From contig JAGWUI010000003.1 in assembly GCA_028868515.1 (NCBI GenBank), forward strand, positions 1 to 64,000: a stretch of DNA of 64,000 nucleotides, read 5' to 3'. This document shows positions 18,440-46,128 of the stretch, one piece after another. A program made the translations under genes and the position numbers. Numbering within the stretch: the first letter of the stretch is position 1; every line of letters begins with the position of its first letter. This stretch comes from Gammaproteobacteria bacterium. GTDB taxonomy: Bacteria; Pseudomonadota; Gammaproteobacteria; Pseudomonadales; Moraxellaceae. The notes beneath the pieces were generated by a model, which was given only the letters and a program-made list of their open reading frames with translations, was not told the DNA's origin and did not search any database.

Positions 18440-20002
18440 TTAACCTTCTTTACGTCTCATATGTGGGAACAAAATCACATCACGAATACTCGCCGCATCA
18501 GCAAACAACATCACCAAGCGATCAATACCAATCCCCTGACCTGCTGTCGGAGGCAAACCGTATTCCAACGCCTCTACAAAGTCCGCATCGAAGTGCATCG
18601 CTTCATCATCACCTGCATCTTTTTCAGCAACTTGCTGGCGGAAACGTTCAGCCTGATCAATCGGATCATTCAACTCGCTAAAACCATTTGCCAACTCACG
18701 ACCACCGATAAAGAACTCAAAACGGTCAGTGATATGTGGATTGTGGTCATTACGACGTGCAAGCGGTGAAGTCTCCGCTGGATATTCAGTGATAAACGTT
18801 GGTTGACGGAGTTTAGTCTCAACTGTTTCTTCAAAGACGATGGTTTGCAATTTGCCCAAGCCAAAACCTTCTTTGACTTTTTCCTTGAGTACAGTTTGAA
18901 CAAAGTTTGCCAAAAACTCGCGGTCTTGAACTTGTTCAGCACTAATTTCTGGATTGTGCTCCAGAATCGCGTCCGCCATAGAAATCTTTTTATATGGTCC
19001 TTTAAAACTAAACACTTCACCTTGATAAGGCACATCGGTTGAACCCAAGATTTGTAGAGCCAAATGCTCCAGCATATCTTCGGTCAGCTTCATTAAATCT
19101 TTATAATCCGCATATGCTTGATAGAACTCAATCATCGTAAATTCAGGATTATGACGCGTTGAAACACCTTCATTACGGAAGTTACGGTTGATCTCAAATA
19201 CACGCTCAAAACCACCAACGACCAAACGCTTCAGGTAAAGCTCAGGCGCAATACGCAGATATAACTCCATATCCAAAGCATTATGATGCGTTGCAAACGG
19301 ACGTGCAGCCGCACCGCCGGGAATGACGTGCATCATCGGCGTTTCAACTTCCATAAAACGTTCGTTTAATAAGAATTGGCGAATACCAGAAATGACTTGG
19401 GCGCGAATTTTGAATGTTTTACGGGTTTCATCATTGGTAATCAAATCCAAATGACGCGCACGATATTTCGCCTCAGTATCACTTAAACCGTGAAATTTAT
19501 CTGGCAATGGACGCAATGATTTAGTCAACAACTCGATGCGAGTTGCATGAACTGAAAGCTCACCCATCTTAGTGCGGAACACATAACCTTCCACACCGAC
19601 GATATCGCCCAAATCCCAAGTTTTAAAATCTTCGTAAGTCGCTTCATCAATGTCATTCTTCGACACATAAAGCTGAATACGACCGCTCATATCTTGAATC
19701 GTCAGAAAACTTGCTTTACCCATGACACGCTTCAACATCACGCGACCCGCAAGTTGAACGATAACTTTATCGCCTTCAACCAGTTGTTCTTGTGTCACAT
19801 CTGCATAAGTGTCATGTAAATCTTGTGCATAATGATTGCGACGAAAGGTGTTTGGGAATGCGTTGCCACCTGTTGCAGCGGTCTTATCGATAATCGCTTT
19901 TAGCTTGGCATGACGTTGGGCAATCAGTTCGTTTTCGGATACTTGTGGCTCTGTGGTAACTGATTTTTCAGAGTTTGCTGGAAATTGCCCTTGCTGCGTC
20001 AT
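18440..20002 (-). CDS. lysS: Lysine--tRNA ligase
   Basis: LysS is the class II lysyl-tRNA synthetase. The 520-residue protein has an N-terminal anticodon-binding OB fold (about 70-175: [23 protein letters not shown]). The class II catalytic domain follows, with motif 1 around FMEVETPMM, motif 2 [18 protein letters not shown] and motif 3 [10 protein letters not shown]. The N-terminus is slightly longer than in E. coli LysS (about 505 residues) and begins with a polar segment. It ends 6 bases before mfd. It diverges from the five-gene cassette that starts at 20.3 kb. Confidence 0.98.
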
Positions 20003-20306
20003 GGTGAATCTCTTGATAAGCTGAGTGAAATCGAGAACGTATCGAAACGATCAAGTGGAGTACTAAAAAATTTAGCGAAGGATAGCAGATTTATGCCCTG
20101 GGTTCATGTCGAACCAGTTAGTTATTGTTTTTATCTGAACAAAAAAACACCCATATCTCACATTTAACTTATTCATTTAATCTCTTCTTTAAGAGCATTT
20201 ACAACCATTAAAATCATTGTTAACATTAACTCAAGTTATTGAAATTATTATTTTCATTAAGATCAAAAATACACCAAATTGCAATAATAAAGAAACAGGG
20301 AAAATT
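20003..20306. promoter_or_regulatory. Divergent gap between lysS and the SWIM-MoxR cassette
   Basis: About 300 bases, AT-rich toward the right, that must carry promoters for lysS (minus) and for the cassette (plus). Short ORFs here have no ribosome-binding sites. A GTTAACATTAAC repeat-like stretch lies near 20218-20231. No promoter could be assigned with confidence. Confidence 0.35.
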
Positions 20307-20372
20307 ATGTTGATGCAATTAGACAATAATCTCAACTTGCATTTTTCTGCGCGGATTGAGCGTAGTTTATGA
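20307..20372 (+). CDS. 21-codon leader ORF overlapping the SWIM gene start
   Basis: An ORF of 21 codons (MLMQLDNNLNLHFSARIERSL) starts at 20307 behind a CAGGGA ribosome-binding site. Its TGA stop overlaps the ATG of the next gene (ATGA at 20369-20372). The SWIM gene has no good ribosome-binding site of its own, so ribosomes finishing this ORF probably reinitiate on it. It could be a coupling leader or a very small first member of the operon. The peptide has no recognisable family. Confidence 0.5.
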   Translation: MLMQLDNNLNLHFSARIERSL

Positions 20373-21748
20373 GTCTTTCTACAGAACAAATTCTTGCATT
20401 AGCCCCTGATTCCAGCTCTGCAAAAGCAGGTAGCGAGTTAGCCAAAGTGACATCTTGGTCAGAATTAGGATGTACACCATCGGCGCTATGGGGCTTCTGC
20501 AAAGGTAGTGGAAAAAATCCTTATAAAACTCAAATCGACTTATCGGAACCTGCATTTAAGTGTTCTTGTCCTAGTCGAAAATTTCCTTGCAAGCATGGAT
20601 TAGCACTTTATCTAGTGTATGCTGAGAACGCTGCTTTATTCGATCCCGCTACCCCACCTGACTGGGTTGAAACTTGGCTTGATAGTCGACAGCAACGTGC
20701 TGAAAAACGTCATGAAACTCAAGAAGCGAAGCAGGAAGCTCTACTCTCATTAACACCAGAAGAACGTGCAAAAAAAGATAAAAGTCAACAAAAACGCCAA
20801 GAAAAACGAGAAAGTCTGGTCAATGGAGGTGTCGAACTCATTGAACTATGGCTCAATGATATTGCTCGAGAAGGCATTAATACGTTAAAAAATAAACCTT
20901 TAAAAGAATGGAATGAATTAGCTGCGCGTATGGTCGATGCACAAGCAACTGGTTTAGGAGCACGTATAAAAAAAATGAGTAGCTTAGTGCATGACACCAA
21001 CAAAAATGATTGGGAAATGCAAATTGCTACTGAACTAGCCAAGCTTTCATTACTCACGCAGAGCTATCGCACAATTCAAAATTTAGACATTGATTTACAA
21101 GCTGACATTCGTAGTGAAATAGGTTGGACGATACAACAAGAAGATGTGTGCAAAGGTGAAGCGATTCTTGATCAATGGTATGTTTTGGCACACTACAAGC
21201 AACAAGAAGATAAACTAACCACACGCTACACTTATTTATATGGGCAAAAGACCAATCGTTTAGGTTTACTTTTACACTTTGCTGCTGGGAATCAACCACT
21301 TCCTGTTGCGATGACAGTGGGAAGCTATCGACAAGGAACAGCTTACTTTTATCCAAGCGCCACTCCACTGCGTGTGGTATTTAACACCGACCCTGATGTA
21401 GACAATCCGATAGAATCCTCAAACTCTCTCGAACTATCATCGACCATCAAACAAGATATTCCTATCATATTAGATAGTTATGCCAATATTTTAGCAAAAA
21501 ATCCATTTATCGATGAGTATCCGTTTTTGCTTCGTTATGTAATGGTTGTTTCACATGCTAATAAATGGATGATCGTCAGCCCCGATGGTGTTTATGCATT
21601 GCGAATGACACCGACATTCAAAAATAAATGGATGCTATTAGGGATAACAGGTGGACAACCCGTTGATATTTTTGGATTGTGGAATGGAGAGTCTTTTACT
21701 CCCCTTTCCGTTCAGACTCATGGATCAAACTATAATCTAGAAGGATAA
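20369..21748 (+). CDS. SWIM zinc-finger protein
   Basis: The 459-residue product has a SWIM zinc-binding motif near its N-terminus: Cys65-x-Cys67-x6-Cys74-x-His76 within FKCSCPSRKFPCKHGLALYL. SWIM domains bind DNA or proteins. The following region (about 105-155) is highly charged and probably coiled coil (EKRHETQEAKQEALL, KDKSQQKRQEKRES). The remaining C-terminal 300 residues form a conserved domain of unknown function with many Trp residues. It is the first large gene of a five-gene cassette with DUF5691, MoxR, DUF5682 and VWA proteins. Start selection relies on the ATGA overlap with the leader ORF. Its precise role, perhaps nucleic-acid or partner recognition, is inference. Confidence 0.85.
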   Translation: MSLSTEQILALAPDSSSAKAGSELAKVTSWSELGCTPSALWGFCKGSGKNPYKTQIDLSEPAFKCSCPSRKFPCKHGLALYLVYAENAALFDPATPPDWVETWLDSRQQRAEKRHETQEAKQEALLSLTPEERAKKDKSQQKRQEKRESLVNGGVELIELWLNDIAREGINTLKNKPLKEWNELAARMVDAQATGLGARIKKMSSLVHDTNKNDWEMQIATELAKLSLLTQSYRTIQNLDIDLQADIRSEIGWTIQQEDVCKGEAILDQWYVLAHYKQQEDKLTTRYTYLYGQKTNRLGLLLHFAAGNQPLPVAMTVGSYRQGTAYFYPSATPLRVVFNTDPDVDNPIESSNSLELSSTIKQDIPIILDSYANILAKNPFIDEYPFLLRYVMVVSHANKWMIVSPDGVYALRMTPTFKNKWMLLGITGGQPVDIFGLWNGESFTPLSVQTHGSNYNLEG

Positions 21749-21752
21749 TGAC

Positions 21753-23411
21753 ATGAGTACAGCGACAAATGTCTTCACCAGCGATTTTAAACGTACACTT
21801 ATTCTCGGGCTTGCACGTGCACCTTTAACCGCCAATGCACTCACCCTTCCTCTCATCCAAAATCAAGATTTAAGCCAAACGATTGCGCAAAATAAGCCTG
21901 ATCTTGCAATTTGGCAAACCATCGCAACGCACAATTTAATTAAAAAAGCAGGATATATTCCACCCAACATCAAACTACGTTTAAATCCACCCGCTTTGCC
22001 TGATCAAAAAATCAAATGCCCGCAACAAGTTGAGCATTTTTTAACTTTAATTCTGAATGATATACATCCAGAACTATTGCCAGAATGGCTTTATTTAATG
22101 CAACTGAATCATTTTTCTGTATCGCATCATTTTTTACCTCGCCTCATTGAAAAAGGAAAAAATCCAAAACTCTGTAATGCCATCTACTCGGTCATCGATG
22201 CACGAGGTGCGTGGTTAATTCATCAAAATCCACTTTGGAAATCTGCGTATAGCACCATTTTAGAAAAAAATAATTTAAACGATCCTAATCAGCAGAAAAA
22301 CAACCTTCAAACATGGAACTTGGGCAAAATTGATGAGCGCGTACACGCTTTAAAAAATATGCGGGCGCATGATCCAATAGCAGCGTTGGCAACGTTACAA
22401 CTCGAATGGGCAAAAGAATCCTCAGAAAATCGCTCTAAGCTTATCACTGCGCTTGAAGTTAATTTAAGCATGAATGATGAAGCTTTTTTAGAATATACCT
22501 TGGATGATTCACATCGTGACGTACGCGGATTTGTACAGTTTTTATTGACAAAACTCCCAGAATCAAAGCTAGTTCAACGCTGTAAAACAATTTTACAAAC
22601 CTTAATTCGATCTGAAAAAAGACTTTTTCGTGCACCAAAATTAGAAATTACCCTGCCTGAGTTAAATGCCTCAATGCAACGTGACGGCATTGATCAGCAT
22701 CAAGAACAGGATTTAGGACCTAAATTAAGTCTTTTAGTACGCTTAATTTCAATACTTCCTTGCAATTACTGGCTCAATGCATGGCAAATATCCATCCAAG
22801 AACTAATCCAGTTAATAGATATACATGAATATCGGAAAGCTTTTTTTACTGGGTTACTGATGTCAATTGCTAGGGAATTATATTCTTTATCATCAAGTAC
22901 AGAGGCGAATCCTACAACGCTTTCATTTTATCAACACTTACTCAAGCATGTCGTCACCTCAGAAAATCTAATCAATTTTGATCGTATTCCAGTCACGAGT
23001 TTTAAACTTTTTGATGCAACAACACAAAATGAAATTTTAGAAAGCTGGTTATCAAGTCAAATTCCTTCAGATCACATACCGGCATTAATTATTTTATGTA
23101 GTAACGCCATCGACACATGTAATTTTATTCAGATTAATCAGTTATCTAAAAAAATATCACCATTGTTTAAGCAAAAAATGCTGAATATGCTTGATGCTCA
23201 AAAATACTATCATCATGCACTATATCAACATCTTCGCAAGCTAACTCTAACTGTTCTGAATCGCTCAGATATCGATGAATTAGTCAATTTAGCTCAAAAC
23301 AATCATACAGAATCCGCCTTAGAAAAATGCCTAAAAGAATGCCAAGACATCATCATTTTTAGAGAGTCTATGCAGCAAGCATTTTTACATCCGATCGATA
23401 TAAAAACATGA
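21753..23411 (+). CDS. DUF5691-type helical protein
   Basis: This 552-residue protein matches the DUF5691 proteins usually found after SWIM genes in this type of cassette, judged by context and its N-terminus (FKRTLILGLARAPL, then WQTIATHNLIKKAGYIPP). It is almost wholly helical and Leu-rich, with HEAT-like pairs such as HALKNMRAHDPIAALATLQLEWAKE and DDSHRDVRGFVQFLLTKLP around residues 195-270. There is no signal peptide or transmembrane segment. It begins 4 bases after the SWIM stop behind a GAAGGA site, so the two are coupled. A scaffold role is plausible but not shown. Confidence 0.75.
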   Translation: MSTATNVFTSDFKRTLILGLARAPLTANALTLPLIQNQDLSQTIAQNKPDLAIWQTIATHNLIKKAGYIPPNIKLRLNPPALPDQKIKCPQQVEHFLTLILNDIHPELLPEWLYLMQLNHFSVSHHFLPRLIEKGKNPKLCNAIYSVIDARGAWLIHQNPLWKSAYSTILEKNNLNDPNQQKNNLQTWNLGKIDERVHALKNMRAHDPIAALATLQLEWAKESSENRSKLITALEVNLSMNDEAFLEYTLDDSHRDVRGFVQFLLTKLPESKLVQRCKTILQTLIRSEKRLFRAPKLEITLPELNASMQRDGIDQHQEQDLGPKLSLLVRLISILPCNYWLNAWQISIQELIQLIDIHEYRKAFFTGLLMSIARELYSLSSSTEANPTTLSFYQHLLKHVVTSENLINFDRIPVTSFKLFDATTQNEILESWLSSQIPSDHIPALIILCSNAIDTCNFIQINQLSKKISPLFKQKMLNMLDAQKYYHHALYQHLRKLTLTVLNRSDIDELVNLAQNNHTESALEKCLKECQDIIIFRESMQQAFLHPIDIKT

Positions 23412-23485
23412 TGACTTCAGATGAATCAATCATATGCCCCACTTTTTCTTAACTTTCTTTTGATAATCAATATAAGGAAACTACG

Positions 23486-24595
23486 ATGACAATAGGATTA
23501 GATGCAATGACTGAACTAACAACCACAATTCGTCAAAGCGCAGAACAACAATACGCACATGAACTAAAAGCCTTAAAAGCATTAGACAAACGCCAGCGTC
23601 CGCCAAATTGGGAGCTTTCTCCATGGGCTGTTTCTACTTACTTATTGGGTGGAACTTTAGAAGATGGCACACAAATTAGTGCTAAATATATTGGTAATCG
23701 TCGCCTCATTGAAATCGCAGTGGCAACCTTAGCGACTGATCGTGCTTTACTATTGCTTGGTGTGCCCGGCACAGCGAAATCGTGGGTTTCTGAACATTTG
23801 GCTGCGGCTATTAGTGGAAATTCACTATTAGTCGTACAAGGAACGGCTGGTACACCAGAAGAAATGATACGTTACGGATGGAACTATGCCGAACTACTAT
23901 CTAAAGGACCAAGTTCCAATGCGATTGTACCAAGCCCTGTAATGCGTGCCATGACAACAGGTAAATTAGTGAGAATCGAAGAGCTAACTCGGATTCCCTC
24001 TGAAATCCAAGACAGCTTCATCAGTATCTTATCTGAAAAAATGATTCCGATCCCTGAACTGGATGAATATGTACAAGCAGAAAAGGGCTTTAATTTAATT
24101 GCAACCGCCAATGACCGTGATCGTGGGGTTAATGAGTTGTCCAGCGCACTGAAACGACGTTTTAATACGGTTGTTTTACCGCTGCCTGATTCAGCCGAAG
24201 AAGAAGTAAAAATTGTCGCTTCACGGGTCGCTAGTTTAGGACGAGCATTAGAACTACCAGCAGAGCCACCAGCACTTGAAGAAGTTCGTCGCATTGTCAC
24301 TATTTTCCGCGAATTGCGTAGCGGTCAAACAGAAGATGGCAAAACCAAAATTAAATCTCCATCTGGTAATTTAAGTTCTGCCGAAGCCATATCTGTCATG
24401 ACCAATGCTATGGCACTTGCCGCACATTTTGGAGATGGGACATTAAAAGGCGACGATCTTGCAGCAGGTATCGTTGGTGCAATCATTAAAGACCCTGTAC
24501 AAGATCAGGTAGTCATGTTGGAGTATCTCGAAACCGTCGTCAAAGAACGCGCAGATTGGACAAATATTTATCGCGCTTGTCGCGAAATTATTTAA
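23486..24595 (+). CDS. MoxR-family AAA+ ATPase
   Basis: The 369-residue protein is a MoxR-type AAA+ ATPase, a class that works with VWA proteins to remodel or load metals or cofactors into target proteins. It has Walker A GVPGTAKS (92-99), Walker B LVRIEE (161-166, with the usual DE replaced by EE), sensor 1 ATAND (206-210) and the RGVNELSSALKRRF segment with likely arginine finger residues (213-226). A C-terminal helical lid follows. The ATG at 23486 is preceded by AAGGAA at good spacing; the Met at residue 8 lacks a site. It lies between the DUF5691 and DUF5682 genes of the cassette and presumably partners the VWA protein at 26973. Confidence 0.93.
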   Translation: MTIGLDAMTELTTTIRQSAEQQYAHELKALKALDKRQRPPNWELSPWAVSTYLLGGTLEDGTQISAKYIGNRRLIEIAVATLATDRALLLLGVPGTAKSWVSEHLAAAISGNSLLVVQGTAGTPEEMIRYGWNYAELLSKGPSSNAIVPSPVMRAMTTGKLVRIEELTRIPSEIQDSFISILSEKMIPIPELDEYVQAEKGFNLIATANDRDRGVNELSSALKRRFNTVVLPLPDSAEEEVKIVASRVASLGRALELPAEPPALEEVRRIVTIFRELRSGQTEDGKTKIKSPSGNLSSAEAISVMTNAMALAAHFGDGTLKGDDLAAGIVGAIIKDPVQDQVVMLEYLETVVKERADWTNIYRACREII

Positions 24596-24616
24596 GGCGC
24601 ATAGGCGAATCAGCTC

Positions 24617-26965
24617 ATGAGTATTCACTTTTTTGGTATACGTCATCATGGCGTCGGTTGTGCACGCAGCTTACAACAGGCGTTTGAGACGTTACAGCCT
24701 GATATCATTCTCATTGAAGGCCCGCCAGAAGCAAATGATTTGCTTCCACTGGCAAGTCTAAATAGCATGCACCCCCCTGTAGCGATATTAATCTATGCAC
24801 CGTTACAGCCCAAACATGCAGTTTATTATCCATTTGCAGTGTTTAGCCCAGAATGGCAGGCCATTCAGTATGGGCAACGTGCGAATATTGTCACTCGCTT
24901 CATTGATTTGCCGCAATCACATCAACTGGCGGAGAGTATCAATGCAGAAAAAGAATGGCTTAATAAACAACAAATTGAACTAGATAAGCTAAAACTCGAA
25001 GATCAACAATCTGATCAAGATCAAAATTTAGGCGTCACAACAGATAGCCCTGATACTCATGAATCACTTAATAAAATGCTTGCAGAAACGACCGAATTAC
25101 ATTCAGGAGATGCCCTAAAGTGGCTTGCAACTGCGGCGGGCTTTAGCGACGTAGAAACATGGTGGGATCATTTAGTTGAGCAAAGGGAAGATAGTTTAGA
25201 TTTATTCACATCTATTGAAAAAATGATGACGGTTGCTCGTGGTGCATTAAACCAGACTTTAAGTGAACGTGAAGCCAAGCGTGAAGCTCATATGCGCCAA
25301 ATGATTCGAATGGCAGAAAAAGAAGGTTTTCAAAAAATTGCCGTCGTTTGTGGAGCTTGGCATGTACCAGCTTTACAAGATATGCCCAGTATTAAACACG
25401 ATGCCGACCTACTCAAAAATTTAACCAAGGAAAAAGTAACAGCCACTTGGACGCCATGGACATACGGACGACTTGCGCAACAATCTGGTTATGGAGCAGG
25501 AATTCAGGCACCAGGTTGGTATGATCATTTATGGCATCGACCTAAACAAGCAGCAATGTATTGGTTAACCGATATTGCGCAGCTTTTGCGTAAACATGAT
25601 TTAGATGCTTCGTCGGCACATTTAATTGAAATATTACGCTTGGCAGATACTTTAGCCAGTTTACGCGAACGTTCACGTGCAGGTTTAGTTGAACTGATGG
25701 ATGCCACCCAAAGTATCTTATTTGGTGAACATCATGCGCCCCTACGTTTAATTGAAAAAGACCTATTAATCAATGATCGCTTAGGCACAGTTCCACCTGA
25801 AACTCCACTGCTGCCATTGCCTGCTGATGTGAAACGCCTGCAAAAAAATCTTCGGTTTAAAATCAACACTGAAACCCAAATTTTAGAATTAGATTTACGT
25901 CAAGAAAATCATCTAGAAAAAAGTATTTTCTTGCATCGTTTAAATTTGCTTGGTGTTGCTTGGGGAAAAATTAAAAAGAATTATGGCAAAACAGGAACAT
26001 ATAACGAAACATGGCAACTTGAATGGCAGCCAGAATTTGAACTACATCTGATTGAAGCAAATATCTGGGGTGCGAGTGTTGCCGAAGCAACCAATCAAAA
26101 ATTATGCTATGACGCAGAAAAGACAACACGTCTTGATGAAATTACGCCATTAATCGAATGTATATTATTAGCTAACGCAACGTCAGCCATTGAACCAGTG
26201 ATGCTGCGGATACAGTCACTTGCAGCAACAACACATGATGCAAGTACGTTAATGACAGCGATAGCACCACTTGCAAAAGTCATGCGTTATGGCAATGTCC
26301 GCAAAACCAATCTTGATGCTGTTGCCGCTGTACTCGATGGGTTAATCCAACGTGCTTGTATTGCTTTACCTCTAGCAGCAACTGGTATTAATCAAGAAGC
26401 AGCCAACCAACTAATGACCGCCATCAGAGCAATGGATAGTGCAATTCACTTATTGCAACAACCAGCACATACTCATGCATGGTTTAACGCATTAGGAAAA
26501 TGTGCGCGCATGCAAACCACACAAGCCTTAATTGCAGGTCGTTCAGTACGCATCTTAACTGAGCAAGCAGTTTGGTCGGTAGAAGAAACTGCACAAGCCT
26601 TAGCTTTTGCTTGTAATAATCCAATCAATCCATTACAAACTGCTGATTGGATTGAAGGTTTCTTACAAGGCAGTGGATTACTTTTAATTCTCAACGATGT
26701 GTTATTCAATATTTTCAATCAATGGGTTTCATCACTACCCGATTCAGTTTTTATAGAGTTACTCCCATTATTACGCCGTACATTTTCAACCTTTACATCG
26801 CCTGAACGACAACAACTAGGTCAGCGTGCCAATGTCGATGGATCAGCACAACTCATCAGCCAAAACGATGATCAACAACCTATAGATGCTATTCGTGCAC
26901 AACGGGTTTTACCATTACTTGGACAAATCTTTGCAACTGCGCATCCAATCTTTTCGGAACAATAA
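24617..26965 (+). CDS. DUF5682 protein with Tiki/TraB-like motifs
   Basis: This 782-residue protein matches DUF5682. Its N-terminus shows FGIRHHGVG (GxxH at 7-10) and LIEGPPE (Glu34, Glu38). A second GxxH occurs as VVCGAWH (246-249). This GxxH...E...GxxH pattern resembles the Tiki/TraB/ChaN/EreA superfamily of metal-dependent hydrolases or heme-binding proteins; the link is my inference from motif order and context. A charged, probably disordered insert spans about 120-160, and the C-terminal 500 residues are mostly helical. It starts 21 bases after the MoxR gene and ends 7 bases before the VWA gene. No signal peptide, so cytoplasmic. It could be the enzyme that the MoxR-VWA pair activates. 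Confidence 0.85.
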   Translation: MSIHFFGIRHHGVGCARSLQQAFETLQPDIILIEGPPEANDLLPLASLNSMHPPVAILIYAPLQPKHAVYYPFAVFSPEWQAIQYGQRANIVTRFIDLPQSHQLAESINAEKEWLNKQQIELDKLKLEDQQSDQDQNLGVTTDSPDTHESLNKMLAETTELHSGDALKWLATAAGFSDVETWWDHLVEQREDSLDLFTSIEKMMTVARGALNQTLSEREAKREAHMRQMIRMAEKEGFQKIAVVCGAWHVPALQDMPSIKHDADLLKNLTKEKVTATWTPWTYGRLAQQSGYGAGIQAPGWYDHLWHRPKQAAMYWLTDIAQLLRKHDLDASSAHLIEILRLADTLASLRERSRAGLVELMDATQSILFGEHHAPLRLIEKDLLINDRLGTVPPETPLLPLPADVKRLQKNLRFKINTETQILELDLRQENHLEKSIFLHRLNLLGVAWGKIKKNYGKTGTYNETWQLEWQPEFELHLIEANIWGASVAEATNQKLCYDAEKTTRLDEITPLIECILLANATSAIEPVMLRIQSLAATTHDASTLMTAIAPLAKVMRYGNVRKTNLDAVAAVLDGLIQRACIALPLAATGINQEAANQLMTAIRAMDSAIHLLQQPAHTHAWFNALGKCARMQTTQALIAGRSVRILTEQAVWSVEETAQALAFACNNPINPLQTADWIEGFLQGSGLLLILNDVLFNIFNQWVSSLPDSVFIELLPLLRRTFSTFTSPERQQLGQRANVDGSAQLISQNDDQQPIDAIRAQRVLPLLGQIFATAHPIFSEQ

Positions 26966-26972
26966 TTTAGTC

Positions 26973-28166
26973 ATGACAATACCAACAAATAGTCAAGAAC
27001 CATTACATACTGATTTACCAACCGAAGTTCATGAAAATCCAGTCATCATGAACAAACGTTGGCGCTTAATGCTGGGGAGTGATGCTTCCAACATCTCCTT
27101 AGATGAAAAAGATATCGCACTTGATCAATCGCTTGAAGCACTTTATGGCGTAAAAAACCAGCAAGGAGGGCTACAAGGCTCCGCGCCTAGAGTTTCTAAA
27201 TGGTTGGGCGATATTCGCAAATACTTTCCATCAAGTATTGTTCAAGTAATGCAGAAAGATGCGCTAGAACGTTTAGGGTTAAAGCAAATGCTACTTGAAC
27301 CCGAAATGCTTCGTACCGTAGAAGCCAACATTCACTTGGTATCCACATTATTATCTTTAAACCGAGTAATGCCAGCAAAGACCAAAGAAACCGCACGCAT
27401 TGTTGTACGTAAAGTCGTCGATGAGTTAGAGAAAAAACTCGCCAACCCTCTACGCCAAGCCATTAATGGCAGCCTCAATCGTGCGGCAAATAATTATCGC
27501 CCTCGCCACAATGAAATCAACTGGTTAAAAACCATCCGTGCAAATTTAAAACATTATCAAGCAGATTATCAGACGATTATTCCTGAACAAAGAATTGGAT
27601 TTGCACGAAAGAGCCAAAGTCTAAAAGATATCGTTTTATGCATTGATCAAAGTGGTTCGATGGCACCTTCAGTGGTGTACGCAAGTATCTTTGCAGCTGT
27701 TTTAGCAACGATACGAGCTGTTACAACACAGGTTGTCGTTTTTGACACGGAAGTCATTGATTTAACTCATCTACTATACGATCCTGTTGATGTATTATTT
27801 GGCACACAATTAGGTGGCGGAACAGATATTGATAAAGCACTTGCCTACTGCCAGACCTTAATTACACGTCCCAACGATACTATCTTTGTGATCATCAGTG
27901 ATTTATATGAAGGTGGAAATGCTAAGCAAATGCTCGCTCGAGCAAAAACTATCGTAGACAGTGGAGTGCAAATGGTCTGTTTACTCGCATTAGATGATCA
28001 AGGTGCGCCCAGTTATGATCGTCGGCATGCCGCTTATTTTTCCAGTATAGGCATTCCCACTTTTGCCTGTACACCAGATCTTTTCCCAGACTTAATGGCT
28101 TCTGCACTCAAAAAACAGGATTTAGCCGCATGGGCAGCAGATGAAGATATTACCGTGATTAATTAA
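26973..28166 (+). CDS. VWA-domain protein partner of MoxR
   Basis: The 397-residue protein has an N-terminal helical region and a C-terminal von Willebrand factor A domain (about 215-390) with an intact metal-ion-dependent adhesion site: DQSGS (Asp225, Ser227, Ser229), Thr284 in GGGTDID and Asp310 in IISDLYEGG. MoxR ATPases typically act with such VWA proteins, which recruit the substrate. The ATG at 26973 lies 7 bases after the DUF5682 stop; a longer reading from 26886 would overlap that gene by 80 bases and lacks a convincing start. It is the last gene of the cassette and is followed by a bidirectional terminator. Confidence 0.9.
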   Translation: MTIPTNSQEPLHTDLPTEVHENPVIMNKRWRLMLGSDASNISLDEKDIALDQSLEALYGVKNQQGGLQGSAPRVSKWLGDIRKYFPSSIVQVMQKDALERLGLKQMLLEPEMLRTVEANIHLVSTLLSLNRVMPAKTKETARIVVRKVVDELEKKLANPLRQAINGSLNRAANNYRPRHNEINWLKTIRANLKHYQADYQTIIPEQRIGFARKSQSLKDIVLCIDQSGSMAPSVVYASIFAAVLATIRAVTTQVVVFDTEVIDLTHLLYDPVDVLFGTQLGGGTDIDKALAYCQTLITRPNDTIFVIISDLYEGGNAKQMLARAKTIVDSGVQMVCLLALDDQGAPSYDRRHAAYFSSIGIPTFACTPDLFPDLMASALKKQDLAAWAADEDITVIN

Positions 28167-28236
28167 TGGTCGTACTGAAAAACCAGTAACTCGAACATCG
28201 TAAAGTTTTGTTGAATTTTTTAATATTGTGTACAAA

Positions 28237-28263
28237 AAAACACCCACATGATGCAGGTGTTTT
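28237..28263. terminator. Bidirectional terminator between the VWA gene and gpx
   Basis: An 8-bp stem (AAAACACC at 28237-28244 and GGTGTTTT at 28256-28263) with an 11-base loop is preceded by a run of A. It can end the plus-strand cassette and the convergent glutathione peroxidase gene. Confidence 0.7.
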
Positions 28264-28295: not shown

Positions 28296-28781
28296 TTAAG
28301 CATTCAATGCTTTTTCAATATCACCAACCATCGATTCTGGTTTGGTTGTTGGCGCATAACGGTCAATTACATTACCGTCTTTACCGACCAAGAATTTAGT
28401 GAAATTCCACTTCACAGCTTCACTACCTAAAATACCTTTCGCTTCTTTGGTCAGGAATTTATAAAGAGGATGTGCATCACTACCATTCACATCAATCTTG
28501 GCAAACATGGGGAAACTAACACCGTAGTTACGCTGACAAAATTCACCAATTTCATTATTTGAACCTGGATCTTGCGAAGCAAACTGGTTGCATGGAAAAC
28601 CAAGAACGACTAGGCCTTTGTCTTTATATTCTTCAAAAACTTTTTCCAAACCTTCAAATTGTGGTGTAAAGCCACATTTGCTGGCCGTGTTCACAATCAA
28701 CAAAACCTTTCCACGGTAATCCGCAAGACTTTGCTCTCCACCTTCAAGTTTTTCTGCACTAAAATCATAAATGCTGGTCAT
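28296..28781 (-). CDS. Glutathione peroxidase family protein
   Basis: The 161-residue protein is a cysteine-type glutathione peroxidase of the BtuE/GPx family, which reduces hydroperoxides with thiol donors such as thioredoxin or glutathione. The peroxidatic Cys36 lies in [12 protein letters not shown]. The catalytic Gln is in LGFPCNQF, and the catalytic Trp-Asn pair is in KWNFTKFLV. The length fits a cytoplasmic monomeric enzyme. It is followed by msrB upstream on the same strand, suggesting a small oxidative-stress pair, though 168 bases separate them. Confidence 0.95.
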
Positions 28782-29639: not shown

Positions 29640-31184
29640 ATGTATTTCGTGAACAAAAAAAACAACATTCAAGTTCTTGTTTATTCTGGATATGATTCAG
29701 AAAAGAAAAGAGCAACGTCTAAAAATCTTGGAACTTTCAAGACAGATACTTATGCACTATCTACCGTATTGCAAACAAATATTACGATTCAACCTGACGA
29801 TACCGATGAAACACAACGTCTCAAAAATGAATATCGCCAGCAGATTGAATCTAAGATCAATGAGTTAAAACAGAAATCTACACTGAAAGACACATCGAAT
29901 CATTCACGAAGCAATGCTTCACAAACCAGAAAACCTTCAACAACTGCAACCAAAAAGAGCCCTATCATGTCTCGTCAAATCGGTAAATCCGCAAAACTCG
30001 ATAAAGTCTGTTACGACATTCGTGGACCATTGCTGAAAGCCGCCAACGCGATGGAAGAACAAGGGCACAAGATTATTAAACTCAATATCGGCAACCCTGC
30101 CCCATTTGGCTTTGAGGCACCGCAGGAAATTTTGTCGGATATTGCATTTAATTTGCCTAACGCTGTTGGTTATAGCGACTCCAAAGGTATTTTCTCCGCT
30201 CGTAAAGCAGTGTTGCAGTATTACCAGCAAAAAGGCATGACCGATGCAGTCAACGTCAATGACGTATATATCGGTAATGGCGTGTCTGAACTGATTGTCA
30301 TGTCCATGCAAGCGCTCTTGAATACTGGCGATGAAATGCTGATTCCAATGCCAGATTATCCACTCTGGACTGCGTCAGTGAATCTAGCAGGCGGTCAAGC
30401 TGTACATTACAAATGTGATGAGGAGAATCATTGGTATCCAGATATTGCTGATATGGAAGCTAAGATCACAGCACATACACGCGGTATCGTGATTATCAAT
30501 CCAAATAATCCAACGGGATCTGTTTATCCACGTCATATTTTGCAGCAAATTGTCGATTTAGCGCGTAAACATGATTTAATTTTGTTTGCGGATGAAATTT
30601 ACGACAAGATCATTTATGACGGCATCGAGCAAGTTTCTGTTGCAACGCTTGCACCTGATTTGCTCTGCATTACCTTTAATGGCTTGTCTAAATCACATCG
30701 TGTTGCAGGTTTCCGTTCAGGCTGGATGTTGATTTCTGGCAATAAAAACAATGCAGCAGACTACATCGAAGGCTTGGATATGCTTGCATCCATGCGCCTC
30801 TGTGCCAATGTACAAGCACAGTATGCAATCCAAACGGCTCTCGGCGGTTATCAAAGTATCAATGATTTAACCAAACCGGGTGGTCGTTTTTACGAGCAGC
30901 GCAACATCGCATGGCAGATGCTCAATGAAATTCCAGGTGTGTCGTGCGTTAAACCTGAAGGGGCGCTGTATTGTTTCCCACGTTTAGATCCTAAAGTTTA
31001 TCCAATTGAAGACGACACAAACTTTATGCTGGAATTACTCAAAGCAGAAAAAGTCTTGCTTGTACAAGGAACTGGATTTAACTGGCCAACACCAGACCAT
31101 TTCCGAGTCGTATTCTTGCCAGCAGAAAGTGAGCTCAAAGAAGCCATGACTCGAATTGGAAGATTTTTGGCGACAAAACGTTAA
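29640..31184 (+). CDS. alaA: AlaA-type pyridoxal-phosphate aminotransferase with N-terminal extension
   Basis: The C-terminal 405 residues (from about 110) are a class I aminotransferase closely like AlaA/YfbQ, which makes alanine from pyruvate and glutamate. Visible motifs are KLNIGNPAPFGFEAP, the NPNNPTGSVYP segment, FADEIYDKIIYDG, and the PLP-lysine motif FNGLSKSHRVAGFRSGWM. About 109 residues precede it: a compact basic segment (residues 1-35, with FVNKKNN and KKRATSKNLGTFK), a helix and a Ser/Thr/Lys-rich linker. The internal ATG at 29967 would give a protein of E. coli size. The long frame is kept because the extension is open and starts with ATG close behind a promoter, but the ribosome-binding site is weak. 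Confidence 0.9.
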   Translation: MYFVNKKNNIQVLVYSGYDSEKKRATSKNLGTFKTDTYALSTVLQTNITIQPDDTDETQRLKNEYRQQIESKINELKQKSTLKDTSNHSRSNASQTRKPSTTATKKSPIMSRQIGKSAKLDKVCYDIRGPLLKAANAMEEQGHKIIKLNIGNPAPFGFEAPQEILSDIAFNLPNAVGYSDSKGIFSARKAVLQYYQQKGMTDAVNVNDVYIGNGVSELIVMSMQALLNTGDEMLIPMPDYPLWTASVNLAGGQAVHYKCDEENHWYPDIADMEAKITAHTRGIVIINPNNPTGSVYPRHILQQIVDLARKHDLILFADEIYDKIIYDGIEQVSVATLAPDLLCITFNGLSKSHRVAGFRSGWMLISGNKNNAADYIEGLDMLASMRLCANVQAQYAIQTALGGYQSINDLTKPGGRFYEQRNIAWQMLNEIPGVSCVKPEGALYCFPRLDPKVYPIEDDTNFMLELLKAEKVLLVQGTGFNWPTPDHFRVVFLPAESELKEAMTRIGRFLATKR

Positions 31185-41293: not shown

Positions 41294-42268
41294 TTATGTG
41301 TTCAAAAAAACATCCTTAAACATTTTCATAATATCTAATAGTGGAATATCGTCATCATCAAGAATCTGCTCCAGCCGAGCTAGGCCAGCATCATTTTCTA
41401 AATAAGAATCTATCCAAGCTGAATCAAATACATGTACCCAATGATCTCCACTTAAATCATCCTGCATCAAACCTGCTAAGGTTGTGGAGTCAGCCCCTTG
41501 GAATCCAACAAGGAGAAGAGGTTGTGCATGGCGATGATAAATTAATGCTGAAACCTCTATGCTGTGGTTCTGAATAAATCCTGAAATCAGATTCAGCCAA
41601 AACGTTGCAGCACGCGTGCTATTTCCACCTTGTGGTAGCGGTAGAATCAAGGCCTTATTCAAATTTTCTGCACCTTGATGAATGACAGGTTGCAGCAATA
41701 ACCCTAATGCAATTAAGCCTTGGATAAACTTCCCATCATGCTTTGCCATCCTCAAATCATGACGGAAACTGCCTACCGTCTGATACATCAAATAAGTTTG
41801 GTACTCTAAACTCCCACCCACACCGACGGTCAAAGGTTGTGATAGACATTGCATCGCAATCGTTGGATCAGGGGTATGAATAGTCTCCGTATTTAATAAA
41901 CGCGTACTTTGCCAAAGCGACTGAAGCAAAACTGGAGCTTGCCCCATAAACTGACTCGGCTTTGCAGGCTGCATCCGAATCCCTGTAATGAGTGGAAAGC
42001 GCCTGTGTGAGATATCGCGACTGGTAGTCAACGTACCTGCCAATGCTAATGGCATTCGTGTACTACAAAATACAAAATCAAGCGGTGGCATCTGATCATA
42101 CTGACTCTGCCAATTCACATAAGTTGATTGAGCCTCAAGCGCTTGAGCAACCCACTGATCCAAAATATGTAGCATCGCACCATGACCTGCACTACGAATA
42201 AAATCTCCACGCGCAGGGCACTTCCCAAAATAAAAAGGTTCAGCCTGATGTGCCAAATGATCATTCAT
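41294..42268 (-). CDS. tagF: T6SS accessory protein TagF
   Basis: TagF proteins (SciT/DUF2094 family) act in post-translational control of T6SS assembly; in Pseudomonas TagF restrains firing. The 324-residue product opens with the family motif AEPFYFGKCPARGDFIRSAGHG. The mid-part WQSQYDQMPPLDFVFCSTRMPL follows, and the rest continues with the unfused (TagF alone) length. No PppA phosphatase domain is fused. Its start overlaps the tssM stop by 4 bp (ATGA), so the two are translationally coupled. Confidence 0.9.
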   Translation of the reverse strand: MNDHLAHQAEPFYFGKCPARGDFIRSAGHGAMLHILDQWVAQALEAQSTYVNWQSQYDQMPPLDFVFCSTRMPLALAGTLTTSRDISHRRFPLITGIRMQPAKPSQFMGQAPVLLQSLWQSTRLLNTETIHTPDPTIAMQCLSQPLTVGVGGSLEYQTYLMYQTVGSFRHDLRMAKHDGKFIQGLIALGLLLQPVIHQGAENLNKALILPLPQGGNSTRAATFWLNLISGFIQNHSIEVSALIYHRHAQPLLLVGFQGADSTTLAGLMQDDLSGDHWVHVFDSAWIDSYLENDAGLARLEQILDDDDIPLLDIMKMFKDVFLNT

Positions 42269-45200
42269 GAGTGACTTCCTGTCTTCTGAGTGGTGGTAGG
42301 CTGTGCAGCACTCGTGATTGCAGTTGGTGCAATACTCACAGTTTGACTCGAAGTAATCACAGGAACTAACTGTAGACCTTTTAAACTGTTTCCTCCTGCG
42401 GGCGAATCAGTTGTGCTTGCTGTACCTGTCGCGGATGGCTGAGAATTACCACCACTAATTAATCTAAACTTCACCGTCACAGAGGTCGGAGATCCTGCTT
42501 GCGGTGCAACTGTGCTAACCCATTTCAATTCAAATGTTCCATCAGCAAGTTTCTTGCGCTGCGCTGAGCTCATCATGCGCTCTAATCCATAAGCACCTGG
42601 TACATCCAAAATCGTGACCAGCCGTCCCTCAAAATCCATGCCTGTGATTTTTACACCGGGTTGGCTTGAAGGATTTGGCCAAACAAAACTTGTCCATTCC
42701 TGCAAACCATTTCGATAGCGCATACGCTGCCCATCGACCTCAATGGTATATTCGCTCAGACCAGCGACAGGAACTGGCATAATCTGGAAAGTTGTTTGTG
42801 CAGGATTATTTGACGCGGCAGCAGGAGAAGCGGAACTACTTGTCGGTGTTGAACCACCAGCAACAGGCGCTAAATACCTTGGAAAATCGGCAATAAATTG
42901 GGGCTCTAAATGAATCCCAATATCATTCCAAGTTTTAGCCGATAGTTGATCACCACGTCGAGTCACAATTGGATCAAGTTTAGATGAAACAAATGTACTT
43001 ACACTGCCACTCTCTCCAAAAACTCGACCAATTTCTGCACCTGTTGCTTCAACATGCGCATTGGCTGTAAATGGGTATTTTTGAGCGAGATCACGACTAA
43101 ACGGTTGATAGACTTGTGCAGCCCAAACCTTGTTAAGTTCGTTTTGAGCAGGGGTAATCAACACGGAAAAAGACTGTGTTAATGGTTTGATTAATAAAGG
43201 ACGAAGCACTTGCTTCATACTATCTGTTGCACCAGCCAGTATTTGCTCATCGATGAGCTGCTGCGTTGAATTCAGTTCAGAGCCGCCCTCATTCAATGTC
43301 TGCTTCACCATGTCCAGAGACCCAGGACCAATATCTCCAGCACTTTTGATTTTGTTTAGTCGAGTACGGATTTGAGATAAATTACTCAAATAAATCATCA
43401 AGAATGATCGTTTCTGATTATCGTCTCGAACTTTAACGATATTATGAAGCGGAGCAAACTCAGCCCCTAAAATTCCCAATGCAGGAGAATTTGGATCTTG
43501 AGTCCCAACATTTACTTGAACCTGCGATGGCGTTCGTTGAAGAACTATGCGTTTCACCCATTCAAAAAAACCAGTCTTTGCTGTCGATAAACTACTATCC
43601 ACAGCCGAAGGATTATCCCAACCTGTTTCACGATCAAGCACCGTAAATAACTTCAAGATCGGAGAAAGCTCAGGATCGCCTAGCCCATTCATCAGTGTCA
43701 CTTCCTGATTGAAATCAGTCGCAGGCACATAATCAATCGACTGGATAAACTTCTTCCACTCCGCAATGTCGTCGCGCTTATACATTGCGATCAGATCCTT
43801 ACGGATTTGCTCAGGACTGCCAGTTAATGTCAGATCATCATTGCGAACTGTGTTCAGCACCCAATCCTGCCCTTGTACATTTTCTGTCGCTGCTTTATCG
43901 ATCGCTTGGCTGATATAACCATCCCAAGCAGCCTTGGTAAATGTTCCAGCAATGACATAGTTACCTGTCATAAAGCTCCGATTCTGCTCACCGACAATTT
44001 GCGCAACAGTAATCGTTGGATAACGAGCGGATGCACGCATTTTTATTTCGGCATATACACGATCACGAGCAGGCATCCCTTTGACGACACGTCGTAAGTT
44101 ATCTCGTGTTTGATCAACCAAAGCCAGATTGGTTTCCAAAACAGGAAAATCGGGAGCATTTGATTGAGATAAAGAATAACTAATAATACGCTCTGCGCTG
44201 CGAATCATATCGCTACGAGACATATCACCACGATTGGCATCGAGCCATGTTCGCCAGAACCGAGTGATCTGATCATTCAAATGACTTTGATCCATGTGGG
44301 TATGATCACCCAACATCAGATATGCTTTGAGCGCGTTGTAGGCATCTTCAACATTGGTTGGCGAGGCTTCTTTATATTGCTGTGCGGCATTCACTGTCAT
44401 TGCTGCGACAGGCTGATCTGTTGGTTGTAGCTGACGACCATTTGCATTCACCTCACCCAAGAATTTTTCTAAATTCTCAGACACAGGTTTCAGCATAATT
44501 TCTTTAATGCCCAACAAATACTCTTGGCGTACTTTAGTTTTAAGTGCATCTCCTTGATACAAACCAAAGCGCAATGACCACGGTCGATCATGATCATATT
44601 GATCTAACTGTTCTAAACGATCTTGCAAAATTTCCAATGATTTGAGTTGACTTGGCATATCGCCTTGCCCTGCACTTTGAATCCGTTTCACTTGCGCCAA
44701 ATCAGCAGCAACACGTTGCACTAATTGTTGGTTATTCATATATGACCATGTCCACAGACTGAGCAAAATGCCAGCGGACAATAAAGTCACTAAAAATAAA
44801 ATATGGCGACGTTGGCGACGATCACGATTGGTATGCTGTCTCACCAAATGACGATCAGCAAGAATCACTTTTGAAAATAAATGATTCAAGAAATAGCCAT
44901 GCTGAATCGTTGGTGTTGTTGCAGGCTCAGGCATCTGGCTCGAAGCTTTTAAACCAAAGCGCTCCAGCATCTGTGCAGTCATTGGACTACCCAACTGCCC
45001 CTCTTGTAATGCACTCGTGAAGTAGAACCCACGAAATACAGGCTTAAACTGGAATGGATTATCTTCAAATAGCGTCGCGATGAATGTCCGAAGTGCAGGA
45101 CGAATCGCTTTAAACTCAAGCGGAAACGTCATAATACTTGGCGACAAGGTTTGATGATGGCGCATCGTCAAATGAGTTGTTCCCAGATCTTTTAATCCGT

Positions 45201-46128
45201 CATACAACACATCGAGTTGCTGATCAAAATGTGTAACTGCATCCATTTGATCATGTTCTTTAAATGGAATTGTTGCACCCCAAACCTGCGCTCGATCCTC
45301 CTGATCATAGTCTGAAAAAAACTCAGTGAATCCAGACAACAAGTCCATCTTGGTAAAGACAATATAAACAGGCGCAAAAACTTCTAATTTTTCAGTTAAA
45401 TCCTGTACACGACTCCGAAGATTTTTTGCCAAAGTCACCACATGTTCGGGATTACTATTCGTTAGTTCAGCAACACTGACTCCGATAATAATGCCGTTAA
45501 TTGGTGCACGTGAGCGATGCTTTTTTAGCAAACCTAAAAAGCTCAACCATTCTTTATGATCTTCTTCATGAACGGCATAGCGACCTGCGGTATCTAACAA
45601 AATTCCTTCTGTTGAAAAAAACCAATCGCAATTTCGCGTTCCGCCAATTCCTCGAATTGCTGGACCACCCTGCTGATCTGCAAACGGAAAACGTAATCCA
45701 GAATGCTGAATTGCAGAGCTTTTTCCTGCTGCTGGATTACCAATCATCATGTACCAAGGCAACTCATACAACGCCGCACGTCCTGTACGATCACCTAAAC
45801 GCGACTTGCGAATAGTACGAATAGCATCATTCATCCGCATGCGTAAATGTTGAGTTTCCTCATGATCCTGTTGGGTTTTCTTAAAACTTCTGACTTGTTT
45901 ATTTTCTTGCAGAAGTTCGATTAACTCATCTCCACTGCGACGAGAGCGATGATTCTGATACCACCAGATAAATATCCATAAGATAAAAATGGTCACGATA
46001 CTCGCCACCACCGACCAATAAATTTTAGGTGGAAAAACACGTTGCAATGCAATCAGCACGATTAATCCACCTAGTGTGACAATAAAACGCGGGTCAGAAA
46101 TAATTGACCAAATACGATTAAAATTCAT
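42265..46128 (-). CDS. tssM: T6SS membrane-complex protein TssM (IcmF)
   Basis: TssM spans the inner membrane and forms, with TssL and TssJ, the channel that anchors the baseplate. The 1287-residue protein has two N-terminal membrane segments (about 17-29 and 38-57). A cytoplasmic NTPase-like domain follows, with Walker A GNPAAGKS (130-137), GILLDTAGRY (175-184) and TKMD (259-262). A third membrane segment lies at 443-463, followed by a large periplasmic part with IcmF-related and DUF1215-like C-terminal regions. The last 70 residues are Ser/Thr-rich and probably disordered. An intact Walker A suggests NTP binding. It overlaps tagF by 4 bp. Confidence 0.97.
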   Translation of the reverse strand: MNFNRIWSIISDPRFIVTLGGLIVLIALQRVFPPKIYWSVVASIVTIFILWIFIWWYQNHRSRRSGDELIELLQENKQVRSFKKTQQDHEETQHLRMRMNDAIRTIRKSRLGDRTGRAALYELPWYMMIGNPAAGKSSAIQHSGLRFPFADQQGGPAIRGIGGTRNCDWFFSTEGILLDTAGRYAVHEEDHKEWLSFLGLLKKHRSRAPINGIIIGVSVAELTNSNPEHVVTLAKNLRSRVQDLTEKLEVFAPVYIVFTKMDLLSGFTEFFSDYDQEDRAQVWGATIPFKEHDQMDAVTHFDQQLDVLYDGLKDLGTTHLTMRHHQTLSPSIMTFPLEFKAIRPALRTFIATLFEDNPFQFKPVFRGFYFTSALQEGQLGSPMTAQMLERFGLKASSQMPEPATTPTIQHGYFLNHLFSKVILADRHLVRQHTNRDRRQRRHILFLVTLLSAGILLSLWTWSYMNNQQLVQRVAADLAQVKRIQSAGQGDMPSQLKSLEILQDRLEQLDQYDHDRPWSLRFGLYQGDALKTKVRQEYLLGIKEIMLKPVSENLEKFLGEVNANGRQLQPTDQPVAAMTVNAAQQYKEASPTNVEDAYNALKAYLMLGDHTHMDQSHLNDQITRFWRTWLDANRGDMSRSDMIRSAERIISYSLSQSNAPDFPVLETNLALVDQTRDNLRRVVKGMPARDRVYAEIKMRASARYPTITVAQIVGEQNRSFMTGNYVIAGTFTKAAWDGYISQAIDKAATENVQGQDWVLNTVRNDDLTLTGSPEQIRKDLIAMYKRDDIAEWKKFIQSIDYVPATDFNQEVTLMNGLGDPELSPILKLFTVLDRETGWDNPSAVDSSLSTAKTGFFEWVKRIVLQRTPSQVQVNVGTQDPNSPALGILGAEFAPLHNIVKVRDDNQKRSFLMIYLSNLSQIRTRLNKIKSAGDIGPGSLDMVKQTLNEGGSELNSTQQLIDEQILAGATDSMKQVLRPLLIKPLTQSFSVLITPAQNELNKVWAAQVYQPFSRDLAQKYPFTANAHVEATGAEIGRVFGESGSVSTFVSSKLDPIVTRRGDQLSAKTWNDIGIHLEPQFIADFPRYLAPVAGGSTPTSSSASPAAASNNPAQTTFQIMPVPVAGLSEYTIEVDGQRMRYRNGLQEWTSFVWPNPSSQPGVKITGMDFEGRLVTILDVPGAYGLERMMSSAQRKKLADGTFELKWVSTVAPQAGSPTSVTVKFRLISGGNSQPSATGTASTTDSPAGGNSLKGLQLVPVITSSQTVSIAPTAITSAAQPTTTQKTGSHS

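Follow-up and report, generated by a model that had tools for sequence, protein, structure and literature searches.

What is the function of a tight cassette of five genes, encoding a SWIM zinc-finger protein, a DUF5691 protein, a MoxR AAA+ ATPase, a DUF5682 protein and a VWA protein, and how did it come to lie between lysS and gpx? We analyzed this question for a stretch of 64,000 nucleotides from a Moraxellaceae genome (GenBank assembly GCA_028868515.1, contig JAGWUI010000003.1, positions 1 to 64,000), in the following called the window. A sequence-only reading had described the cassette as one system of unknown function, possibly a transferable islet acting in stress response or biological conflict. 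We found that the window cassette is well conserved, was acquired horizontally and belongs to a family that is known but lacks an explanation: together with the operons yehLMPQ of E. coli and ddrTUVWX of Deinococcus it looks like one family, and the joining of the three is new. This provides radiation-induced expression as a physiological handle, a predicted enzyme for which candidate residues can be named and, with E. coli K-12, a host that is easily handled.

We compared the gene neighborhood in 98 loci, 18 from the family of the window and 80 from the genome_contigs collection; 74 loci comprise enough flanking DNA. The 80 relatives are the best of at least 583, ranked by similarity to the query, and this set therefore leans to the cassette type of the window. 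The complete five-gene set was present in 58 of the 74 loci with sufficient context, MoxR being found in 71, VWA in 70, SWIM (window-type profile) in 62 and DUF5691 in 58. When considering only the genome_contigs loci, all five genes were present in 52 of 59 with sufficient flanks. The seven incomplete loci lack DUF5691 (L064, L101) or both SWIM and DUF5691 (L111), hold MoxR and DUF5682 only (L120) or consist of DUF5682 alone (L056, L062, L088). Of 398 Pseudomonadota genomes 14 carry DUF5682, and 7 have a DUF5691 match that exceeds the cut-off; in 7 of 7 cases the DUF5691 gene is located upstream of DUF5682 on the same strand at a distance of 1.2–1.7 kb. Two more DUF5691 matches in these genomes were both below the cut-off. 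The seven DUF5682 proteins linked to DUF5691 score 658–865 bits, other full copies 329–371 bits with no DUF5691 nearby. The latter constitute a second type; one genome (G442) carries both, and both cassette types occur within the window's own family, in which the cassette is patchy (23 of 149 genomes). Across the window and 68 loci, the pairwise identity values of any one cassette protein correlate with those of the others at r 0.75–0.94, a comparison made with no housekeeping control and after dropping loci without one of the genes or with a protein of at most 300 amino acids. The whole cassette is found in at least ten phyla with its gene order conserved. The five genes are thus one module, co-occurring far beyond chance, and the complete loci together with the DUF5691–DUF5682 linkage bear out the single system proposed from the sequence. 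The five-member neighborhood that this proposal mentioned for other bacteria is real. The cassette is not new to biology; the first reading overlooked its homologues in E. coli and Deinococcus as well as the TraB/TIKI-like domain. Some relatives are modified: a RhuM-Fic gene is located between MoxR and DUF5682 in two of them (L030:10314-11297, L029:763-1794), others hold different ORFs (open reading frames) within the cassette, part of which may be spurious, and the copy at L020 (genome G144) looks broken with one TAG stop in the DUF5682 frame.

The E. coli relative was found among the control genomes. MG1655 carries yehL-yehM-yehP-yehQ, adjoining molR/yehI. The window MoxR aligns with YehL over nearly its full length (42% identity over 349 columns, E 7e-79); the DUF5682 protein shares 29% identity with YehM and the VWA protein 33% with YehP. 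For the SWIM protein and YehQ BLASTP gave an E-value of 0.067, and a profile comparison, whose 78 columns lie outside the zinc finger, gave E 3.7e-4 (probability 36). MoxR, DUF5682 and VWA follow each other in the same order as in the window and a SWIM-motif protein belongs to the operon. However, its gene is located last instead of first and is only distantly similar to that of the window, DUF5691 is missing and a DUF4132 gene (yehI) lies upstream. Judged by sequence, yehLMPQ is a divergent four-gene version of the cassette. The core of the cassette is accordingly present in nearly all E. coli: the yeh block was matched in 5301 of 5426 genomes, in 5162 with a coverage of at least 80%. Of the 98 loci, 12 likewise have a DUF4132 gene in the vicinity of the cassette, and in nine Bacteroidota loci it adjoins the VWA gene (L072, L075, L078, L079, L083, L084, L102, L108, L122), echoing the position of yehI beside yehLMPQ. 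YehL has been listed as a MoxR subfamily, its function being unstated in the sections concerned (PMC3893208, PMC11834572). In the literature searched we found no paper linking ddrTUVWX-type operons with yehLMPQ, and none naming DUF5682 or DUF5691. A weak LexA-like site (13 of 20 positions of the consensus) starts 27 bp before yehF (L026, E. coli position 2196447), and MolR is described in the part of PMC8533742 consulted as a member of the LexA regulon.

The cassette is very probably homologous to ddrTUVWX as well. In D. deserti this five-gene operon extends from Deide_18730 (SWIM) to Deide_18690 (VWA, CoxE-like), is radiation-induced in dependence on IrrE and is preceded by a DdrO operator (RDRM). 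According to the same account, D. gobiensis, D. maricopensis and D. peraridilitoris likewise carry the operon with its RDRM, and D. radiodurans, D. geothermalis and D. proteolyticus do not (PMC5552922). The number of genes, with SWIM first and a CoxE-like VWA last, is that of the window; control by IrrE and DdrO through an RDRM, as described there, is a difference, as no match to the RDRM pattern was found upstream of the window cassette. A plasmid of D. taeanensis carries SWIM-DUF5691-AAA-(small ORF)-DUF5682-VWA, which is the gene order of the window with one small extra ORF. Upstream of its SWIM gene, at -37, we found the sequence ATTACGCCAGAAACATAAT, an RDRM scoring 25.8 bits with a matrix built from 17 published sites, the next best value in 16 kb being 8.1. 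The control genome of Deinobacterium chartae matches both DUF5691 and DUF5682. The suggestion of a role in stress response hence gained support, from the published induction of ddrTUVWX and from the DdrO-type site in front of the D. taeanensis cassette.

We then scanned 73 regions upstream of the SWIM gene (the window, D. taeanensis and 71 further loci) for SOS-type boxes. CTGTN8ACAG was observed 0 times (0.28 expected), a loose LexA form 11 times (11.28 expected) and GAACN4GTTC once (0.47 expected); the cyanobacterial and alphaproteobacterial LexA forms gave 0 matches. The only operator standing out across these regions is the RDRM of D. taeanensis. A general SOS control of the cassette was rejected, as LexA-type boxes of several phyla did not clearly exceed the locus-wide density. 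An Acinetobacter damage-response paper was searched for an operator motif and none was found. In the genome of the window a frame of 163 amino acids (G000:C51:16354-16716, L221) matches the C-terminal part of the LexA profile only. The DUF4132 protein DRA0166 is reported to belong to the DdrO regulon of D. radiodurans and to rise with mitomycin C (PMC8533742, in part).

Concerning its origin, the cassette arrived horizontally as one block. In all three other genomes of the genus lysS and gpx adjoin and DUF5682 is absent (3/3), and alignment of the flanks places the insertion at the terminator between the two genes. Copies of a 15-bp repeat that occurs nowhere else in the window flank the insert, and a 15-bp repeat was reached in 0 of 500 mononucleotide shuffles of the two flanks. 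The empty sites hold a single copy of the last 13 bases of the repeat (L142), a single near copy that is one base shorter (L141) or a different terminator (L140). Beyond the five genes and ORFs overlapping them the insert has no ORF of at least 80 amino acids, and thus no recombinase. In a DUF5682 tree, a quick tree with warnings on letter make-up and on long Yeh-type branches, the window is nested in a clade of Oxalobacteraceae (SH-aLRT 100), apart from the copies of its own family. All five window proteins are nearest to Oxalobacteraceae loci; for MoxR the identity reaches 80% to these versus 60–67% for the five family loci compared. In 18 loci of the family of up to 17 kb, lysS and gpx queries found no match, and the cassette therefore sits elsewhere in the other family members. 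The GC content is 39.8% for the cassette and 41.9% for the rest of the window. Since another 8-kb stretch (4–12 kb) is equally low with 39.7%, composition was discarded as a sign of foreign origin. The empty site in 3/3 congeners and the foreign phylogeny support the reading as a transferable islet.

The domains of the proteins give hints on what the module might do. All motifs noticed in the first reading were found as described there. The MoxR protein carries a Walker A motif GVPGTAKS at residues 92–99 and the VWA protein an intact MIDAS as read from the sequence (D225-x-S227-x-S229, T284, D310); the two genes are neighboring with the DUF5682 gene in between. In the PDB, MoxR matched midasin first and NorQ as well (E 2.3e-4). 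The sole match of the VWA protein to solved structures is a CRISPR Csm5 entry (E 0.0014), while its family match assigns the proposed MoxR-VWA pair to the general CoxE type. Like NorQ-NorD, CoxD-CoxE and RavA-ViaA, the cassette encodes a MoxR AAA+ protein together with a MIDAS VWA protein, here of CoxE type. The clients of those pairs, as far as the sources consulted describe them, are respiratory or metal enzymes, whereas the companions here are SWIM, DUF5691 and DUF5682.

In the SWIM protein the motif C65-x-C67-x6-C74-x-H76 is invariant in 54 of 54 aligned sequences. Its predicted structure (pLDDT 92.8) consists of the SWIM domain (1–101), a helical middle and two OB-like barrels (about 257–453). 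Residues 1–101 match ZSWIM8 of the CUL3 ubiquitin-ligase complex (Z 10.6, root-mean-square deviation (rmsd) 2.7, 96 aligned; next row 6.9). The rows covering 257–453 reach Z 5–7 and are mostly HIN-200, RPA, SSB and telomere-end binding proteins, which we take to be OB-fold nucleic-acid binders. The protein thus probably ends in tandem OB-like barrels, and the model suggests a nucleic-acid-binding recognition role. A Foldseek search with the model returned nothing at E ≤0.001, and a sequence-only search of solved structures nothing credible. The DUF5691 protein shows weak matches to Xpo1 and TFCD_C, both below their cut-offs, and is probably HEAT-like helical.

A TraB/TIKI-like domain with conserved candidate active-site residues in the DUF5682 protein is a new observation of this analysis. 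The predicted structure (pLDDT 89.6, pTM 0.84) shows an alpha/beta N-terminal part (about residues 1–290) followed mostly by helices (23 after residue 298). Among viral structures (BFVD) the best match is a TraB family protein (probability 1.00, E 0.026). The top match in VIA is chain E of 7w5z, Tetrahymena complex IV, over residues 1–261 (Z 9.5, rmsd 4.6, 175 aligned). A structure of this complex contains a TraB-family protein (PMC10060162, figure legend), with which we tentatively identify chain E; 7w5z was not among the hits when the PDB was searched with a TraB profile, and the part of PMC10227065 consulted names no TraB subunit. With hhalign, DUF5682 matched ChaN with E 0.00097 (probability 22) and TraB with E 0.0021 (probability 13), or E 0.0044 with a larger set. 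Both rank above 16 unrelated families (best E 0.014) and reversed controls; the Ere family profile gave no match (E 0.22). A sequence-only search of solved structures found nothing credible, and Foldseek against the PDB with the whole model found none at E ≤0.001, the 50 rows listed being mostly helical or designed proteins. The TraB reading hence rests on BFVD, VIA, motifs and weak profiles.

H10 (70/72), H11 (70/72), E34 (71/72) and H249 (72/72) are highly conserved in DUF5682 proteins and kept in 12 of 12 sequences including YehM. In the alignment to ChaN, H10 and H249 coincide with histidines; E34 lies opposite a gap, its equivalence being assigned by eye. As in TraB, TIKI, ChaN and Ere proteins there is a G-x-x-H near the first strand, a late G-x-x-H, a Glu after the second strand and an alpha/beta core. 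DUF5682 differs in its long helical C-terminal part, its weak profile match and the lack of the first Glu: in the alignment to ChaN, Ile8 replaces this residue of the 2His/2Glu set described for VvRRSP and Ere enzymes (PMC6254334, in part), so that the full set is not present. The TraB proteins compared also lack the first Glu (GGTIH, GGTVH). We consider it likely that the N-terminal domain belongs to the TraB/TIKI superfamily, and a hydrolase activity is plausible. The C-terminal part matches HEAT/ARM proteins with Z 7–9 in VIA, a likeness that may reflect a common helix arrangement only.

These data suggest the following mechanism. The YehL-type MoxR and the CoxE-like VWA protein would form an ATP-driven remodeling machine that acts, most likely, on damaged nucleoprotein together with a TraB-like enzyme. 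This enzyme would be the DUF5682 protein, in which a HEAT-like scaffold carries the TraB/TIKI-like hydrolase domain and which the MoxR-VWA pair might mature or position; such an action of the pair on DUF5682 is plausible. The SWIM protein with its zinc finger and two OB-like barrels would recognize a target that is probably a nucleic acid or a nucleoprotein, with DUF5691 as a possible helical adaptor. The process served would most likely be recovery after damage to the DNA or after a closely related stress, because the Deinococcus homologue ddrTUVWX is strongly radiation-induced.

Several points weigh against this proposal. DUF5682 occurs without the other four genes in 3 of the 59 loci with context. 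The TraB match is weak (fold E 0.026, profile probabilities 13–22%), the assignment of 7w5z chain E is tentative and the HEAT-repeat and OB-fold matches have middling Z values. PMC5552922, as far as consulted, names domains for the first and last ddrTUVWX genes only, the weak match before yehF is not the top-scoring one of the region and no LexA encoded in the genome of the window reaches the family cut-off. Upstream of the SWIM gene, neither the window nor the 71 other loci show LexA-, RDRM- or further SOS-type boxes clearly in excess of expectation, so that damage control is established for Deinococcus only. As no SOS-type box is clearly over-represented outside Deinococcus, we graded the parts separately: a MoxR-VWA machine with a TraB-like enzyme and a recognition protein is well favored, whereas a damage-response role in the organism of the window has slightly less than an even chance. 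The whole explanation, a horizontally transferable MoxR-VWA machine with a TraB-like enzyme serving DNA-damage recovery, we regard as evenly balanced.

The nearest competing explanation is metal or cofactor insertion, in which MoxR and VWA would supply the active site of DUF5682, or else some cellular client, with a metal in the manner of CoxDE and NorQD. The DNA-damage link of Deinococcus would then be secondary, and the E. coli neighbor molR would tie the cassette to molybdate. The CoxE-like VWA family and the NorQ match, though placed after midasin, agree with this, as does iron insertion by NorQD through remodeling (PMC13036017, in part); yehLMPQ adjoins molR/yehI (PMC10652928, in part) and molR is cited as a possible regulator of molybdate metabolism (PMC8533742, in part). 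However, among the 25 families shown (169 matched) none occurred in more than 4 of 139 flanking proteins and SufE in 2, no metalloenzyme or cofactor family being prominent. Moreover, moeA and moeB of D. radiodurans are given in the consulted part of PMC8533742 as not differentially expressed on DdrO depletion, and the SWIM and OB-like parts would be left without a role. We consider metal insertion improbable, at about one chance in four, though compatible with the damage-response reading and not exclusive of it. A more daring version of the damage-response reading, an ATP-driven, damage-induced protease for nucleoprotein repair, appears unlikely: SWIM/OB would find single-stranded or protein-blocked nucleic acid, MoxR-VWA would pull the bound protein and the TraB/TIKI-fold enzyme DUF5682 would cut it. 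If true, bacteria would thereby possess a means of dealing with DNA-protein crosslinks, present in nearly every E. coli as yehLMPQ. Least probable is that co-regulation alone unites the five genes in an operon and that their proteins do not act jointly. No report of physical interaction was found and some genomes lack SWIM or DUF5691 or hold DUF5682 alone, but the order is kept across at least ten phyla, 7/7 DUF5691 genes are tied to DUF5682 and the cassette moved as one block.

A conflict system of the MoxR-VWA ternary type, directed against phages or plasmids, would fit the patchy distribution in the family (23/149), the horizontal transfer and extra genes such as RhuM-Fic in some relatives. 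MoxR also has a partial bpMoxR match just above the cut-off (28 versus 27 bits, 65 of 205 positions), and two PHROGs families of unknown function match DUF5682 (E 9.5e-40) and VWA (E 1.4e-59). Yet PADLOC-DB 2.0.0 gave only weak matches for the five proteins, all to MoxR (best IetA E 0.011, mad8 E 0.02). In the flanks, where 139 of 238 adjacent and 139 of 160 more distant ORFs were compared (ORFs above 900 amino acids or exceeding the size limit were excluded, and GC-rich loci contribute some spurious ones), PADLOC matches were not enriched beside the cassette: 10 families are listed for adjacent proteins, each matched by 1–2 members, and 20 for distant ones, 18 of them single-member with several models of one protein (ZorB, PycC). 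A MoxR and vWA core is shared with the published ternary conflict systems, but VMAP, iSTAND and beta-propeller are not recognized in the window cassette; no beta-propeller or other published third component is among the Pfam matches, and the main text of PMC7159879 mentions neither SWIM nor DUF5682 nor YehL. A scan of IMG/VR viral contigs with two peptide patterns found no relative. Relatives were present in 32 of 72,556 records of a plasmid collection and in one phage record, an unannotated phage-labelled contig with a DUF5682 relative, so some virus-labelled genomes do carry DUF5682/VWA relatives. Given also the yehLMPQ relative in 5301/5426 E. coli genomes, biological conflict is disfavored as an early suggestion, the PHROGs matches running the other way; we regard such a system as unlikely, and the reading as a defence island was rejected because of the weak PADLOC matches and unenriched flanks.

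The features are compiled in Table 1. All five plus-strand genes announced between lysS and gpx were recovered by ORF and Pfam searches, and the gaps of 4, 74, 21 and 7 bases were correct. Of the unit boundaries given as 20307–28166 the end is right, while the first ATG follows 62 bases after 20307. No NCBIfam model scored above its cut-off with the cassette proteins. The terminator said to close the unit is plausible as a hairpin, but its fold is no better than that of shuffled sequence (z -0.98) and it is missing from the output of a terminator scan; promoter and terminator scans of the window performed at chance level.

Table 1. Features of the cassette and its flanks in the window.
Feature	Position	Strand	Remark
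lysS	18440-20002	-	left flank of cassette
15-bp direct repeat ACAAAAAAACACCCA, left copy, insertion junction	20139-20153		exact repeat
AT-rich stretch upstream of SWIM gene	20154-20368	+	no LexA- or RDRM-type box detected
SWIM zinc-finger gene, 459 aa	20369-21748	+	PF04434, E 2.9e-5
DUF5691 gene, 552 aa	21753-23411	+	PF18944, E 2.6e-79
MoxR AAA+ ATPase gene, YehL type, 369 aa	23486-24595	+	PF07728, E 3.9e-37
DUF5682 gene, 782 aa	24617-26965	+	PF18934, E 2.3e-250
VWA_CoxE gene, 397 aa	26973-28166	+	PF05762 VWA_CoxE, E 1.1e-48
15-bp repeat, right copy, within terminator between cassette and gpx	28232-28246		exact repeat
Terminator-like hairpin, A-run before and T-run after	28237-28263		fold not above shuffles
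gpx	28296-28781	-	right flank of cassette

Upstream of the SWIM gene an inverted repeat TGAAA-N7-TTTCA (20240-20256) is a candidate operator. Outside the cassette, an aminotransferase of alanine type (29640-31184) carries about 115 additional residues at its N-terminus that the family match does not cover. At 42268-46128 lies the gene for TssM, a type VI secretion component (TIGR03348, E 1.4e-213), indicating that at least part of such a cluster is located in the second half of the window.

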